Below are positions 12,555 to 46,212 of a DNA stretch of 55,555 nucleotides, piece after piece. The number at the start of each line of letters is the position of its first letter. Position 1 is the first letter of the stretch. The stretch is from Dehalococcoidia bacterium (GTDB lineage: Bacteria > Chloroflexota > Dehalococcoidia > Lucifugimonadales > Lucifugimonadaceae), in assembly GCA_002708085.1 (NCBI GenBank), contig PAOU01000011.1, forward strand, positions 1-55,555, read 5' to 3'. The position numbers and the translations under genes were made by a program. A model generated the notes under the pieces. That model saw only the letters and a list, made by a program, of their open reading frames with translations. It ran no database searches and had not been told where the DNA came from.

Positions 12555-14332
12555 TAATTTTTAGATTCCTGAAGTGTTTTTATTTCTTGATTATCTTTAA
12601 TTGCTTCTTCAATAATATAGTCCCATTCTTGAACAGAATTTTTATCTTTTTCTACCATACGTTCTTTCATAATTTTTTCTGTTTCAATCTTTCTTTCTTT
12701 GAGATATCTTTCACGGATTCTTCTAATATAGTCATTCATAATTGTAATTTTACTTTCATGACTACTAGATGGTTGAGTTTGATTAAATATACTTTCTATT
12801 AACTCTAAAGTAAATTCATCAGAAGAATTTTTCATATTGTTTAATATCTCCTCTAATGGTACATCAGATATGATTTTTTCGTATATATGTTGATAAAGTG
12901 GAGAAAAATATTTTGGATCTATAATAGTTTTAGCGGATTCAATAAGTTCTAAATTGGTAATTAAAAAATTTATCAATGCTTCATCAAGCTTATTTTCATT
13001 GTTTTGCCATGATTGAGAATAAATATGCTTAGATTGTCTTTTATTTTTTTTAGGTTTTGGTAATAGTTGTAATTTTTCTCTGGAAATGTTTAGTTTTTTT
13101 GCTAGATGATCAAATGCTTTATTTTGTTCGTGAGAATTTTTTATAGTAATTATTATTGGATAAATTGATTGTGATGCTTCAATTATTTCAGTTTCATCAG
13201 ACAGATTATAGGAATAATCAATATTTTCTATTAAGTAAAAAATTAAAGATTTAGTATCATTAATGTGAGATTTCCATGATTCAGGATTCTCTCGAATCAT
13301 TGTGTCGGGATCATTATCTTTATCAGAATCACAGAGGTAGATTTTTTCATGTAAAAGATCTGGTTTTTCAAAGTTTCTTATAATTTTTATTAAATTATTA
13401 TAAGTAGCTTTTTTGCCTGCAATATCTGAATCTAGAGATAGAATAATTTTTGAGCATAAAGGATCAAGTATTTTTAAATGGTCATCAGAAATTGCTGTAC
13501 CCATACATCCAACAACATTCATGAACCCGTTTTCATGGGCAGTTATGACATCAAAGTATCCTTCTACTATTATTGCAGAACCAGATTCTTTTATAGAATT
13601 TTTAGCCCAATTGAGTCCATATAATACTTTTGATTTATTGAAAAGTTGAGTTTGTCTAGTATTGATATATTTTGGTTGATTTTGGCCTAAGGCTCTTGCT
13701 CCGAAACCTACTAACTTGTTATTCTCATCCCTTATTTCTATAGTGATTCTATTTGTAAAAGTATCTTTCCAGACGTTATTATTCCATTTGACTAGAAGTC
13801 CTGATTTTATTGCAGATGAGCTATCAACGGATTTTGATTTTAAATGATCAACAAGAGTATTCATTCCCTCATAATTTACCCCCAACCCTCTTCTTGAGAT
13901 TATTTCTTCACTAATACCTCTTTCATTTAAATAATTTCTGGCTTTTAATCCTTCAGGTGTTTTTATTAAAGATTGAAAATAAGAAGCTGCAATTTCATTG
14001 GCATTTTCTACAGAATGAGTATCTCTTTCTGTGTCTGAATTAAAAGTGAGTTTTACTCCAGCTTTACTAGCAGCTATAGATAATGCTTGAGGAAAATTTA
14101 TATTTTCTGAAGTCATAATAAAGTTAAAAATGTCTCCGCCGGTAGAACAAGCACCAAAACATCTCCACGTCTGCTTATCTGGATAGACTACAAAAGAAGG
14201 AGTTTTTTCATTGTGAAAAGGGCACAATCCTTTTAAAGCATTTTTATTACCAGATAAATTAGTGTTATCAGAAACTAATTCTACTAGATCGAGTTTACTT
14301 TTTACTTCTTTTACTAGATCAGGTTTTGCCAT
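12554..14332 (-). CDS. dnaG: DNA primase
   Basis: N-terminal zinc finger ([26 protein letters not shown]), TOPRIM ([28 protein letters not shown]). Stop overlaps the rpoD start (TAATG). Confidence 0.96.
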
Positions 14333-18671: not shown

Positions 18672-19742
18672 TTAGTTGGGGTTTACTTGAATATTTTTTG
18701 GAATTTGCTTTACTAAAATGTCAAAAATTATTAATGGATTCACATTCATATCTAGTGTTTTTTTTGAAGACGAAAGATAATTTAACAGAATAAGAGTTTT
18801 TGAAATTGGTATTATAGAAGCAATTTTTTTTGTTTCATCAAAATACTTAGAATAAATAATTTGATGATCTTGATTTGTTTGAATCATTAAAATATCTCTA
18901 CACCAATTTGACCAGCAATCTAATTCGTTTTTTACAGAATCTTTGTTTTTTTTATATTGTCCAGATAATTCATTAGAATATTGTAATTGTTTTGATAAAG
19001 GATTTTTTAATAAATTTAATATTCTTTCAATGGTTTGATTTTGATTGTCTAAAATTATTGGATTTTCTATAATATTAATTGCTTTCCCAAAGCAACCTTG
19101 TGACAGTTTTGCTATAGTACTTAGTTTTTCAGTTTTTTCCGGATAAGTCATTTCTAATAATTTTTCTATGTTTTTAGAAGGTAGAGGAAAAAGTTTATAG
19201 GATTGACATCTTGATTTGATTGTTAAAGGTAAAAAATCTAAAGATTGCACTAATAAAATTAGTAGAAAATTTGGAGATCCTTCTTCTAATATTTTTAATA
19301 AATGATCAATGGATTCTTTTCTTAGTAAATGTGAGTCTTCTACTATAATAACTTGATAATTTCCGTAGAAAGGTTTTATTTGAGATTTTCCTAATATTAA
19401 ATCTCTAACAACACATATTGAAATCACAGTTTGTTTTGTAGTTGGGCCACAACATTTTCTTTCATCATTTTTTTTAGGGTTTGAACATACTGATTCTTTA
19501 TTAATAATTAATACATCAGGGTGATTATTAGAATTAATTCGTTTACATTGGTCACATGAACAATCTTCGACTCCTTTTTCACCTTTACAGTTGATCTCCT
19601 TGGATATATCTAGAGCTAGTGTAGTTTTTCCAGAATTTTTAGGTCCAGAAATAATAATTGAATGTGGTAAAGGATTAGATTTACAGACTTCTTTAAGGCT
19701 GTTAATTACTTTAGGATAACCTAATGTTTGCCAAGAACTAAT
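18672..19742 (-). CDS. holB: DNA polymerase III delta' subunit-like / DnaX-like clamp-loader ATPase; apparent ATT start
   Basis: Reverse-strand translation from ATT at 19742: (I/M)SSWQTLGYPKVINSLKEVCKSNPLPHSIIISGPKNSGKTTLALDISKEINCKGEKGVEDCSCDQCKRINSNNHPDVLIIN... continuing in frame into the listed 251-aa ORF (VIIVEDSHLLRKESIDHLLKILEEGSPNFLLIL, IKSRCQSY). Walker A and zinc-type Cys cluster are upstream of the listed ATG at 19427. Confidence 0.82.
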   Translation of the reverse strand: MSSWQTLGYPKVINSLKEVCKSNPLPHSIIISGPKNSGKTTLALDISKEINCKGEKGVEDCSCDQCKRINSNNHPDVLIINKESVCSNPKKNDERKCCGPTTKQTVISICVVRDLILGKSQIKPFYGNYQVIIVEDSHLLRKESIDHLLKILEEGSPNFLLILLVQSLDFLPLTIKSRCQSYKLFPLPSKNIEKLLEMTYPEKTEKLSTIAKLSQGCFGKAINIIENPIILDNQNQTIERILNLLKNPLSKQLQYSNELSGQYKKNKDSVKNELDCWSNWCRDILMIQTNQDHQIIYSKYFDETKKIASIIPISKTLILLNYLSSSKKTLDMNVNPLIIFDILVKQIPKNIQVNPN

Positions 19743-23323: not shown

Positions 23324-24307
23324 TTGATAATAGTTACAGGATGTTCAGGTTTTATTGGGTTTCATCTTTCTAAGGAATTGTTAAATAATAATTTGCCAGT
23401 ATTAGGTATTGATAATTTAATTTCTTCACAAAATATTCTTAAAAATTGGAGGTTAGAACAATTAAAGAATTATGGAATAAATTTTATAGATGTAGATATT
23501 ACGAATAAAGCAGAATTAAATAAAAAAATAAGAGACATAAATTTTTCTGGAAATTTTTCTACAATTTATCATTTAGCCGGATTAGCAGGAGTAAGGCAAT
23601 CAGTTCTAGAACCAAAGAAATATTACAATAATAATGTTATGGGGACTATTAATATGTTGAATATAGCTACAGAATTTTCTTTAGAATCTTTTGTTTTTGC
23701 TTCTTCTTCTAGTGTTTATGGGCTTCAAGATAATAGAATTCCTTTCGTAGAAAATGAAACATTAGAAAGTCCTCAATCTCCATATGCATTTTCTAAGTTA
23801 TTTGCTGAATTAATTTCTAAGGATTATTCTAATATTTCTTCTTTGAATGTATCTTTATTAAGATTTTTTACGGTTTATGGTCCTGCTGGAAGGATTGATA
23901 TGAGTATTTTGAAGTTTATCCATAATATTATTAATGAAAATCCTATAAATATTTATGGAGATGGTTTTCAAGAAAGAGATTTTACATATGTGGAAGATAT
24001 TTGCGAAGGAATTATAAAATCTAGTAGAGTTGACGGCTTTGAAACATTTAACTTAGGGTCATCACAACCTTACTCTATAATTAAGGTTCTAAGCATATTA
24101 AAAGAAATAATTAATAAAGAACCAAAAATAGAATATCTTCCAAAGCATTACGCTGATGTGAATTATACGTGGGCAAATATTGATAAAGCTAAGTCACTTT
24201 TGAAATGGCATCCTAAAACAAGTTTAGAAAATGGATTAGAAAAGACAGTGGATTGGTATAAAAATAACAAAGATTTGTTAGCATCAACTTTTGAAAAATT
24301 TAATTGA
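23324..24307 (+). CDS. NAD-dependent sugar epimerase/dehydratase
   Basis: VTGCSGFIGFHLSKELL, SSSSVYG, YAFSKLFAE, nucleotide-sugar epimerase-like C-terminus. TTG start. Confidence 0.88.
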   Translation: MIIVTGCSGFIGFHLSKELLNNNLPVLGIDNLISSQNILKNWRLEQLKNYGINFIDVDITNKAELNKKIRDINFSGNFSTIYHLAGLAGVRQSVLEPKKYYNNNVMGTINMLNIATEFSLESFVFASSSSVYGLQDNRIPFVENETLESPQSPYAFSKLFAELISKDYSNISSLNVSLLRFFTVYGPAGRIDMSILKFIHNIINENPINIYGDGFQERDFTYVEDICEGIIKSSRVDGFETFNLGSSQPYSIIKVLSILKEIINKEPKIEYLPKHYADVNYTWANIDKAKSLLKWHPKTSLENGLEKTVDWYKNNKDLLASTFEKFN

Positions 24308-24334
24308 AATTATACGAATAGATGGAGATTTAAA

Positions 24335-25522
24335 ATTTTACTTTCTAAAATTTCTCTAAAAAACTTTAGGAATCATGTTGATACTTCTATTGATTTAGCT
24401 CCAGGTTTAAATATATTTTTTGGTTCTAATGGTCAAGGTAAAAGCAATTTTGTTGAAAGCATTTATTTGCTAGCTATTGGAAAAACATCTAGATCATCTT
24501 TTGATCAAGAATTAATTAATTATGAAATCAATTCAGGAGATAATTGTTCAATTAAAGCAATTGGATCAGATGGTCCCATTTTGTTCAATATAGAATTTGA
24601 ATTAAAACAAGATATAAAAAATTCAAATTCTAGTATTGAAGATAATAAGGCATTTAAGTATAAAAAAATCTTAAAAATAAATGGAGCTAAAGTTTCTTTG
24701 AATTCTTTTGTAGGCGTTTTTAATGTTGTTATGTTTGAAGCTAATGATTTAATGTTAATTTTTGGAGCTCCTATATTAAGAAGGAGATTTTTAGATATCT
24801 TAATTTCACAAACTGACATTCAGTATTTGAAAGCTCTTCAAAGATATAATCAGGTTATAAAAAATAGGAATAGAATTTTGAAGAATATTTCTTTAAATAA
24901 TTCTAACTATAATGAGTTAAAATTTTGGACAGATAAATTGATTGAAGATGGAAGTATGATAATGTATTTCCGACATAAAATAATTCAGAATTTATTTCAA
25001 CGTACAAGTATTTTATATGATCAATTATCTATAGAAAATGAAACTTTAGAAATAATATATCATCCTAATTTGAAATACTCAGATGATATTGATTTAAAAA
25101 ATCAATTGATACAAAAAAATGACTATGAAAAATTTATTTTTGAATCTATTGAGAGAAAAAAGAATGATGAATTAAGATATGGAACTTCATTAGTTGGCCC
25201 TCACAGAGATGATTTAGATATAAAATTGTCAGGATTTAATATTTCTAATTATGCTTCTAGAGGTCAAATAAGATCTATAGTATTGGCATTAAAGTTAGCT
25301 GAAGCTGAAATTATTAGTGAAATAAAAGAAAGTGATCCTGTAATTATTTTAGATGATGTAATGTCAGAAATGGATTCAGATAGAAGAAGATTAGTTTTAC
25401 AATTAATTAATAATTATGATCAGGTTTTAATTACAGTTCCAGACAGAAAATTATTAGATCAACCCAATCTGAAGTATTCAAAATTATTTAATGTTAATAA
25501 AGGCAAAATTAATATTTTATAA
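24335..25522 (+). CDS. recF: DNA replication and repair protein RecF; apparent ATT start
   Basis: Translation from ATT at 24335: (I/M)LLSKISLKNFRNHVDTSIDLAPGLNIFFGSNGQGKSNFVESIYLLAIGKTSRSS... through C-terminal YGTSLVGPHRDDLDIKL, YASRGQIRSIVLALKLAEAEI, ILDDVMSEMD. The listed TTG at 24467 would delete Walker A. Confidence 0.9.
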   Translation: MLLSKISLKNFRNHVDTSIDLAPGLNIFFGSNGQGKSNFVESIYLLAIGKTSRSSFDQELINYEINSGDNCSIKAIGSDGPILFNIEFELKQDIKNSNSSIEDNKAFKYKKILKINGAKVSLNSFVGVFNVVMFEANDLMLIFGAPILRRRFLDILISQTDIQYLKALQRYNQVIKNRNRILKNISLNNSNYNELKFWTDKLIEDGSMIMYFRHKIIQNLFQRTSILYDQLSIENETLEIIYHPNLKYSDDIDLKNQLIQKNDYEKFIFESIERKKNDELRYGTSLVGPHRDDLDIKLSGFNISNYASRGQIRSIVLALKLAEAEIISEIKESDPVIILDDVMSEMDSDRRRLVLQLINNYDQVLITVPDRKLLDQPNLKYSKLFNVNKGKINIL

Positions 25523-34915: not shown

Positions 34916-35446
34916 TTATTCTGTTTGATTTGTTAGATGATCACATACTTCCCTTACAGCACCATTCCCTCCAAGAGTTTCAGTAATGTATTTGGCAACT
35001 TTAATTAATTTTGGATGACAGTCTTTTACAACAATTGGAAGGCCTACTTTTGATAGGCATTCTAAATCATTAATGTCATTTCCCATGAAAGCTACTTTAG
35101 AGATTTCTAAATTTTTATTTTCAATAATTTCTTTTACTAAAGAAAATTTATTTTCTACAGAATCATAACATTCAATATTCATTTTTTTACATCTAGTTTT
35201 TACTAAAGGGTTTTTCTCTGAAGATATAACAATTTTTCCTATTCCTTGAGATTCTAAGTTTTTTAATCCAATTCCATCATATCTTGAGCATTTAACCATT
35301 TCTTCTCCAGTTTGAGAAACATATACACTGTTGTCAGTGAATACTCCGTCAAAATCAAAAAATATAAATTTTATGTTTTTGAAAATAATTGATGTTTTAA
35401 GATCTAATTGTTTTGATTTAAGAGACATTTTATTCCAAGTTTTCAA
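34916..35446 (-). CDS. HAD phosphatase, KdsC / nonulosonate-9-phosphate phosphatase type
   Basis: FIFFDFDGVFTDNSVYVS, KCSRYDGIGLKNLE, ISSEKNPLVKTRCKKM, AFMGNDINDLECLSKVG. Confidence 0.88.
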   Translation of the reverse strand: MKTWNKMSLKSKQLDLKTSIIFKNIKFIFFDFDGVFTDNSVYVSQTGEEMVKCSRYDGIGLKNLESQGIGKIVISSEKNPLVKTRCKKMNIECYDSVENKFSLVKEIIENKNLEISKVAFMGNDINDLECLSKVGLPIVVKDCHPKLIKVAKYITETLGGNGAVREVCDHLTNQTE

Positions 35447-44902: not shown

Positions 44903-45016
44903 GAAATATTAAAATAGATAACATTATAATACTTTATTAAGTTATATTGATGAGTAAACTTAAATTCTAGATATTTTTTTTCTGTTAAGTTAGGATGCAA
45001 TAAGAATAGGAGAATT

Positions 45017-46212
45017 ATGATAAAAATTATTAAAAATGGTTCAATTACTACTCCAAAAGGTTTTAAAGCTGGTGCTGTTTATGCTGGACTTAAAAGCCCT
45101 GGAGAAGATAAATATGATTTGGGAATAATTTATTCCTCTTCCCCTTCAAATTGGGCTGGTGTATTCACCAAAAATAAAATTGTTTCTCCTTCAGTAGTTT
45201 TAAGTAAATCTCTACCCGATATTATTCAAGGAGTAGTGGTAAATAGTGGGTCAGCTAATTGTTGCGTTGGTGATCAGGGCATGAGTGATGCAAGAGAATT
45301 AGTAGATCTTACCAAAAAACATTTGAATTCAGATCTTGATTTTGTTTTATGTAGTACAGGTGTAATAGGTGTTGAGTTGCCTATGGGATTAATAAGAGAA
45401 AATTTAGGAAAAATCAATGTTAATGATTCAGGAGGATCTGATTTTTCGAAATCAATTATAACTACAGATACAATTACTAAAGAAATTTCTATTGAGATAG
45501 AGCATGATGGTGAAAAAATTCATATTTCTGGTGTAGCTAAGGGTTCCGGCATGATTCATCCGAATATGGCTACAATGTTAGCTTTCATAACTACTGATGC
45601 AAAATCTGAATCATCTTATTTAAAGAAAGTTTTGAAAAATGTAGTTGATAAAACTTTTAATCAAATAGATGTTGATGGTGATACTAGTACTAATGATTCA
45701 GTTATTTTATTAGCTAATGGAGAATCAGGACAAAAAATTGATGAAAATTCTTCAATGCACGATGATTTCTTAAAAGGATTACATATTGTTGCTGAGGATT
45801 TATCAAAAAAATTGCTATTGATGCAGAAGGAGCACAACATTTAATTACAGCAAAAGTACAAGGAGCTATTAATAGTGTAGAGGCTAGACTTATAGCAAAA
45901 GAAATAGTTTCTTCAAATCTTGTAAAAACTGCTGTTTATGGAAGAGATCCTAATTGGGGCAGAATAATGATGGCTATAGGTAACTCTGATTCTAATATCA
46001 AAGAAGATAAGATAAAAATATTTATTAATGATATTCAAATTGTTGAAGAAGGAAAATCTATTCCTTTTAATCCAACATCTGTGATTGCAGCTCTTACGAA
46101 ATCAGAAGTAGAGATATTAGTAGATCTGGGTATTGGAAATGGTGATGGATGTGCTTGGGGTAGTGATTTAACTGAAGAATATGTTGTTTTTAATTCAGCC
46201 TATAGAACATAA
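45017..46212 (+). pseudogene. argJ: Glutamate N-acetyltransferase/amino-acid acetyltransferase ArgJ, interrupted by a -1 frame change at an A7 tract (45805-45811)
   Basis: First frame covers the N-terminus through KGSGMIHPNMATMLAFITTDA. The continuation AIDAEGAQHLITAKVQGAINSVEARLIAKEIVSSNLVKTAVYGRDPNWGRIMMAIGNSD... is in the -1 frame. Functional status unknown: mutation, assembly error, or recoding/slippage. Confidence 0.88.

Follow-up and report, generated by a model that had tools for sequence, protein, structure and literature searches.

A conserved AUU, AUC or AUA codon as the apparent start of recF in an order of Dehalococcoidia

Where does translation of recF begin in a genome in which the 5′ part of its reading frame contains none of the usual start codons? 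The question is raised by a contig of a marine Dehalococcoidia bacterium (PAOU01000011.1, assembly GCA_002708085.1), of which the stretch analysed, positions 1 to 55,555, is referred to here as the window and its genome as G000. The recF frame remains open for 404 codons from the TGA at 24305–24307 to the TAA at 25520, and the first ATG, GTG or TTG encountered on scanning it after the TGA at 24305 is the TTG at 24467. A first-pass annotation, made from the letters of the window, had described this open frame and had proposed that recF is a genuine AUU-initiated gene, starting at the ATT at 24335, the expected place of the RecF initiator, 7 nt beyond a GGAG motif and with the Walker A sequence lying upstream of the called TTG. 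On re-examination these observations were confirmed and the translation was found to be identical. The features of the locus are given below; canonical denotes ATG, GTG or TTG, AUH denotes AUU, AUC or AUA, and G007 is the nearest relative of G000.

23324–24307, plus strand: upstream NAD-dependent epimerase open reading frame, whose TGA stop (24305–24307) also bounds the recF frame
24324–24327, plus strand: Shine-Dalgarno motif GGAG, 7 nt 5′ of the ATT; motif and spacing identical in G007
24335–24337, plus strand: putative recF initiator ATT, in a frame without a canonical start; ATT in G007 and AUH in 32 of 33 loci of the family
24335–25522, plus strand: recF coding sequence from the ATT, 395 amino acids, stop TAA at 25520–25522; identified by its TIGR00611 match and compared with G007 by dN/dS
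24422–24445, plus strand: Walker A motif GSNGQGKS, 5′ of the called TTG
24467–24469, plus strand: TTG picked by a gene caller that allows only ATG, GTG and TTG; a start here costs 44 residues and the Walker A motif

The product matches the RecF profile TIGR00611 with a score of 286.3 bits against a cut-off of 172, and the match extends over positions 1–337 of the 339 in the profile. Counting from the ATT, the Walker A motif begins at residue 30, the usual distance from the start; because the motif lies upstream of the TTG at 24467, initiation at that codon would delete it. The mRNA structure near the recF start is in no way unusual (z of 0.27 and −0.41), and the 3′ end of the 16S rRNA, sought for its anti-Shine-Dalgarno sequence, was not recognisable in the G000 and G007 sequence examined.

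Comparison with close relatives, the check that the first-pass annotation had suggested, was made initially with G007 (contig PBKW01000011.1, a Chloroflexi metagenome assembly), whose recF is 92% identical to that of the window. Its leader, ttGGAGataaaaaATTctactt, retains both the ATT and the GGAG and carries an in-frame TAA two codons 5′ of the ATT, so that no canonical start is possible before the Walker A motif. Across the whole gene, dS between the two genomes is 0.48 and dN/dS is 0.087. Over the 44 codons preceding the called TTG, dN/dS is 0.07, indicative of purifying selection, and we conclude that the segment dropped by the gene caller is translated and selected.

The initiator codon was then read at 214 recF loci, comprising 33 from the window's family, 86 from the rest of the order, 68 from the rest of the class and 27 from the rest of the phylum. 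Within the family, 32 of the 33 loci have AUH (13 ATT, 15 ATC and 4 ATA), the sole ATG being that of G003, a member of the window's own genus. Elsewhere in the order, the loci divide into 40 with AUH, 40 with a canonical codon and six in which the canonical start is displaced by one codon. The frequency of AUH is 10 in 68 in the rest of the class, where the other 58 loci are canonical (17 ATG, 24 GTG and 17 TTG, the weak GTG and TTG starts thus making up 41 of the 68), and 0 in 27 in the rest of the phylum. With the exception of the six displaced cases, every non-AUH codon at the site is ATG, GTG or TTG. Moreover, valine at this site is encoded by GTG in 48 of 48 instances and leucine by TTG in 26 of 26, while isoleucine is represented by all three of its codons. 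This restriction of valine to GTG and of leucine to TTG identifies the site as an initiator rather than a conserved hydrophobic residue. The third base of the AUH codons tracks genome composition, the median GC content being 0.62 for loci with ATC and 0.36 for those with ATT (p = 9e-10), and G occupies this position once among the 33 family members. The recF tree shows at least 13 switches between AUH and canonical starts and 73 among the six codons.

The AUH start therefore appears to be an order-wide property of recF and not a quirk of the window's genome. The ATT of G007 and the AUH codons of 32 of the 33 family members support the proposal of an AUU-initiated gene, and the assignment of the putative start codon to the ATT at 24335 is well supported. 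Chance is an inadequate explanation, because the codon, its distance from the Walker A motif and the Shine-Dalgarno sequence are met again in dozens of genomes that were assembled independently. The weak start is not indispensable, since canonical codons account for about half of the loci in the rest of the order and the congener G003 uses ATG. In three groups of the class survey (f38, f39 and f68), several near-complete genomes matched the RecF profile only weakly, in a Rad50-like manner, and apparently lack recF.

A Shine-Dalgarno sequence, scored as a motif of four or more bases situated 3–11 nt before the start, precedes 68 of the 82 AUH codons (83%) compared with 38 of the 126 canonical starts (30%; Fisher p = 3.5e-14), counts that are inflated by the relatedness of the loci. 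Within the order, the corresponding figures are 36 of 40 and 11 of 40 (p = 1.4e-8). In a strict phylogenetic pairing, the association had the same direction but was not significant, the six supported pairs (mean 2.8 for and 0.5 against) being too few. We regard the position of the predicted start, the conservation of AUU, AUC or AUA and the coupling of these codons to a Shine-Dalgarno sequence as established at the sequence level.

The same test of start codons was applied to other genes in related genomes. Loci without a canonical start numbered 0 of 30 for dnaN and 0 of 30 for recR, the single flagged recR having an ATG at +3, and 2 of 28 for folP (those of the window's genome and G007); for recF, the figure is 23 of the 33 family members. 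The textbook AUU-start gene infC served as a positive control. Its start reads AUA over most of the order, from which we conclude that AUH codons are indeed used for initiation by the ribosomes of this group. The window's genome has an infC gene that scores above the family cut-off; in this genome (G000 C11:98936) and in G007, the infC start is probably TTG.

A scan for further AUH starts covered 261 ortholog pairs from G000 and 434 kb of G007. As a first, looser scan of the genome had been swamped by upstream nucleotide conservation, the analysis was limited to pairs in which 14 or more aligned codons precede any canonical start. About 2% of the 261 pairs look AUH-started, a minimum estimate, since a gene that happens to have a canonical codon close by escapes the test. 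The additional candidates in G000 are holB, folP, a gene near C11:105795, an MFS transporter and a gene that we take to encode an inositol-phosphate synthase. The first of these lies in the window:

18672–19742, minus strand: holB (DNA polymerase III delta′ subunit), apparently a second AUU-start gene; Pfam PF13177, E = 1.1e-32

The holB ATT (19742–19740) directly follows an in-frame TAA and has GGAGG 5 nt upstream. The start is ATT or ATC in all seven genus members read (G000, G002, G003, G005, G006, G007 and G008), accompanied, in members with a match, by a Shine-Dalgarno sequence of the GGAGG or GAGG type. The folP gene (dihydropteroate synthase; G000 C6, minus strand, start near 35141) has an apparent ATT start after GAGGTG in G000 and G007 only. 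On the minus strand of G000 C11 near 105795, AGGAGGAGG is followed after 6 nt by ATC in G000 and ATT in G007, and the gene has no canonical start before codon 21–30. The presumed inositol-phosphate-synthase-like gene (G000 C6, plus strand, near 13127) has ATT where G007 has ATG, and we therefore regard it as an instance of a species-level start codon change.

What might a weak start accomplish in recF? In the explanation that we consider best, to which we attach a probability of roughly 0.8, the start is a conserved weak codon, discriminated against by IF3, that holds RecF scarce. Translation from the AUU at 24335 would proceed by ordinary fMet-tRNA initiation aided by the strong Shine-Dalgarno sequence; the codon, disfavoured by IF3, would limit each cell to a few RecF molecules, and the Shine-Dalgarno sequence would keep expression above zero. 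The purpose would be to avoid an excess of RecF that destabilises replisomes while retaining basal gap repair. The rejection of AUG by selection, the IF3 discrimination at the recF codon and this low-dose purpose are the elements that we infer, and regulation of recF through IF3 is suggested by analogy.

The recF gene of Escherichia coli has an ATG start and belongs to dnaA-dnaN-recF, whereas that of the window follows an epimerase gene. The orthologous protein is kept very scarce in E. coli, where a cell contains about 18 RecF-YPet molecules (PMC6451095), and over-expression of RecF is extremely toxic, an effect of destabilised replisomes (PMC10287930). This toxicity provides a testable reason for a weak recF start. 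In Staphylococcus aureus, AUU and AUA starts with an extended Shine-Dalgarno sequence give about 10% of the expression from AUG (PMC13009471); for Listeria rsbW, expression decreases in the order ATG, ATA, ATT (PMC13068326); and in Streptomyces, SigR is held down through IF3 by a GTC start (PMC5472188). An excess of GTG and TTG among the recF starts of the whole class agrees with a milder form of this low-dose pressure, and the persistence of AUH behind a strong ribosome-binding site suggests a long-kept means of making little of a protein that is toxic in excess. A bolder proposition, that selection works actively to keep AUG out of recF, and out of holB in one genus, and so ties the dose of replisome-interacting proteins to IF3 activity, strikes us as rather doubtful; if it were true, this dose would follow translational state or growth, and the state of the ribosome would be linked to gap repair.

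The chief rival accepts that the AUH start of recF is real but holds it to be nearly neutral, AUH being tolerated, the Shine-Dalgarno sequence compensating and no low-dose function having been selected. Such a process would explain the turnover evident in the 13 or more exchanges between AUH and canonical codons, and the strong Shine-Dalgarno sequences at most AUH loci could restore expression. Moreover, at least four other genes of the genome (holB, folP, the C11 gene and the inositol-phosphate synthase) seem to combine AUH with a Shine-Dalgarno sequence. Yet near-neutrality sits poorly with a start type that is seen in about 2% of the 261 ortholog pairs, never in dnaN or recR, and in 97% of the family's recF genes. 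Free drift of the third base would, in addition, make G common in GC-rich relatives, where it was met once in 33, and the preference for weak codons extends to the GTG and TTG starts of the wider class. We therefore judge a nearly neutral start to be improbable and favour a weak codon that restrains RecF dose.

Much less credible is a RecF start elsewhere, either at an upstream canonical codon, which would lengthen the N terminus, or at the internal TTG at 24467, which gene callers would pick. An in-frame canonical codon does lie upstream at 27 of the 82 AUH loci, at which AUH is hence not forced, but the other 55 have none, and in 27 a stop occurs within six codons. The window and G007 have no canonical codon between the upstream stop and the ATT, and the Walker A motif is at residue 29 (0-based) in all forced AUH loci in which it was matched. 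As for the TTG at 24467, its use sacrifices the Walker A motif, and the Shine-Dalgarno sequence is spaced for the ATT; the confinement of valine and leucine at the site to GTG and TTG tells against both forms of the proposal, which we reject on comparison with the relatives. There is scarcely any likelihood that the true codon is ATG and the ATT an artefact of assembly or strain, for although metagenome assemblies contain errors, and an argJ-like gene in the window is shifted in frame by one base at a homopolymer when compared with G007, the separately assembled G007 also has ATT, and AUH occupies the site in 80 further loci. Equally negligible is decay of recF to a pseudogene, which the first-pass annotation had named as a possible refutation and which the absence of a canonical start would by itself fit, given the intact 395-codon frame, the TIGR00611 match above cut-off, a dN/dS of 0.087 with dS of 0.48, and the same start in many species.

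To our knowledge, conserved AUU, AUC or AUA starts have been recognised in very few bacterial genes. The first-pass annotation gave infC and pcnB as the known AUU cases, a view that is now dated, as sigR with GTC (PMC5472188) and ccpN with AUA and cvfC1 with AUU (PMC13009471) are also known. By sequence-level criteria, recF belongs among the genes with a conserved non-canonical start, because no canonical start is usable, AUH is conserved and the Shine-Dalgarno sequence is well spaced. Like infC, which has AUA over most of the window's order, recF possesses an AUH initiator conserved over a large clade; unlike infC, in which IF3 regulates its own synthesis, recF does not encode IF3 and has no feedback loop, and its AUH start is confined, in the 214-locus survey, to one class of Chloroflexota. 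With ccpN (AUA) and cvfC1 (AUU) of Staphylococcus and Bacillus, recF shares a conserved codon and an extended Shine-Dalgarno sequence. These are, however, other genes in another phylum, proven experimentally with expression of about 10% (PMC13009471), whereas the recF start is predicted from sequence and switches among all three AUH codons. Streptomyces sigR (PMC5472188) likewise combines a lineage-conserved non-canonical start and a strong Shine-Dalgarno sequence with a dose-sensitive protein kept low, but its codon is GTC or GTT, its product is a sigma factor, and the IF3 dependence tested in Streptomyces would apply to recF by analogy. Thus, the kind of start is familiar from infC, sigR and ccpN, and recF as such a gene is apparently unreported; our literature searches, with much subscription literature outside their coverage, returned no report of an AUU-type recF start.

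In recF, a broadly conserved DNA-repair gene, the weak codon persists while its third base drifts, which offers a natural experiment on dose control and the strength of start codons. A practical consequence is that gene callers restricted to ATG, GTG and TTG will, in the window's order, truncate recF past the Walker A motif or wrongly lengthen it.

Two further genes were noted in the course of the analysis, both labelled by us from sequence. On the minus strand of G000 C11 near 83385, the frame of a presumed RsmD-like gene has neither a canonical start nor the usual first strand, in G000 and G007 alike; a TGA stop and one codon precede an ATT, consistent with either an ATT start or N-terminal loss. 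The gene that we take to be argJ-like (window, about 44920–46209, plus strand) is broken in two by the loss of a single base next to a run of A near 45803, through either assembly error or recent mutation, and the G007 copy is intact.
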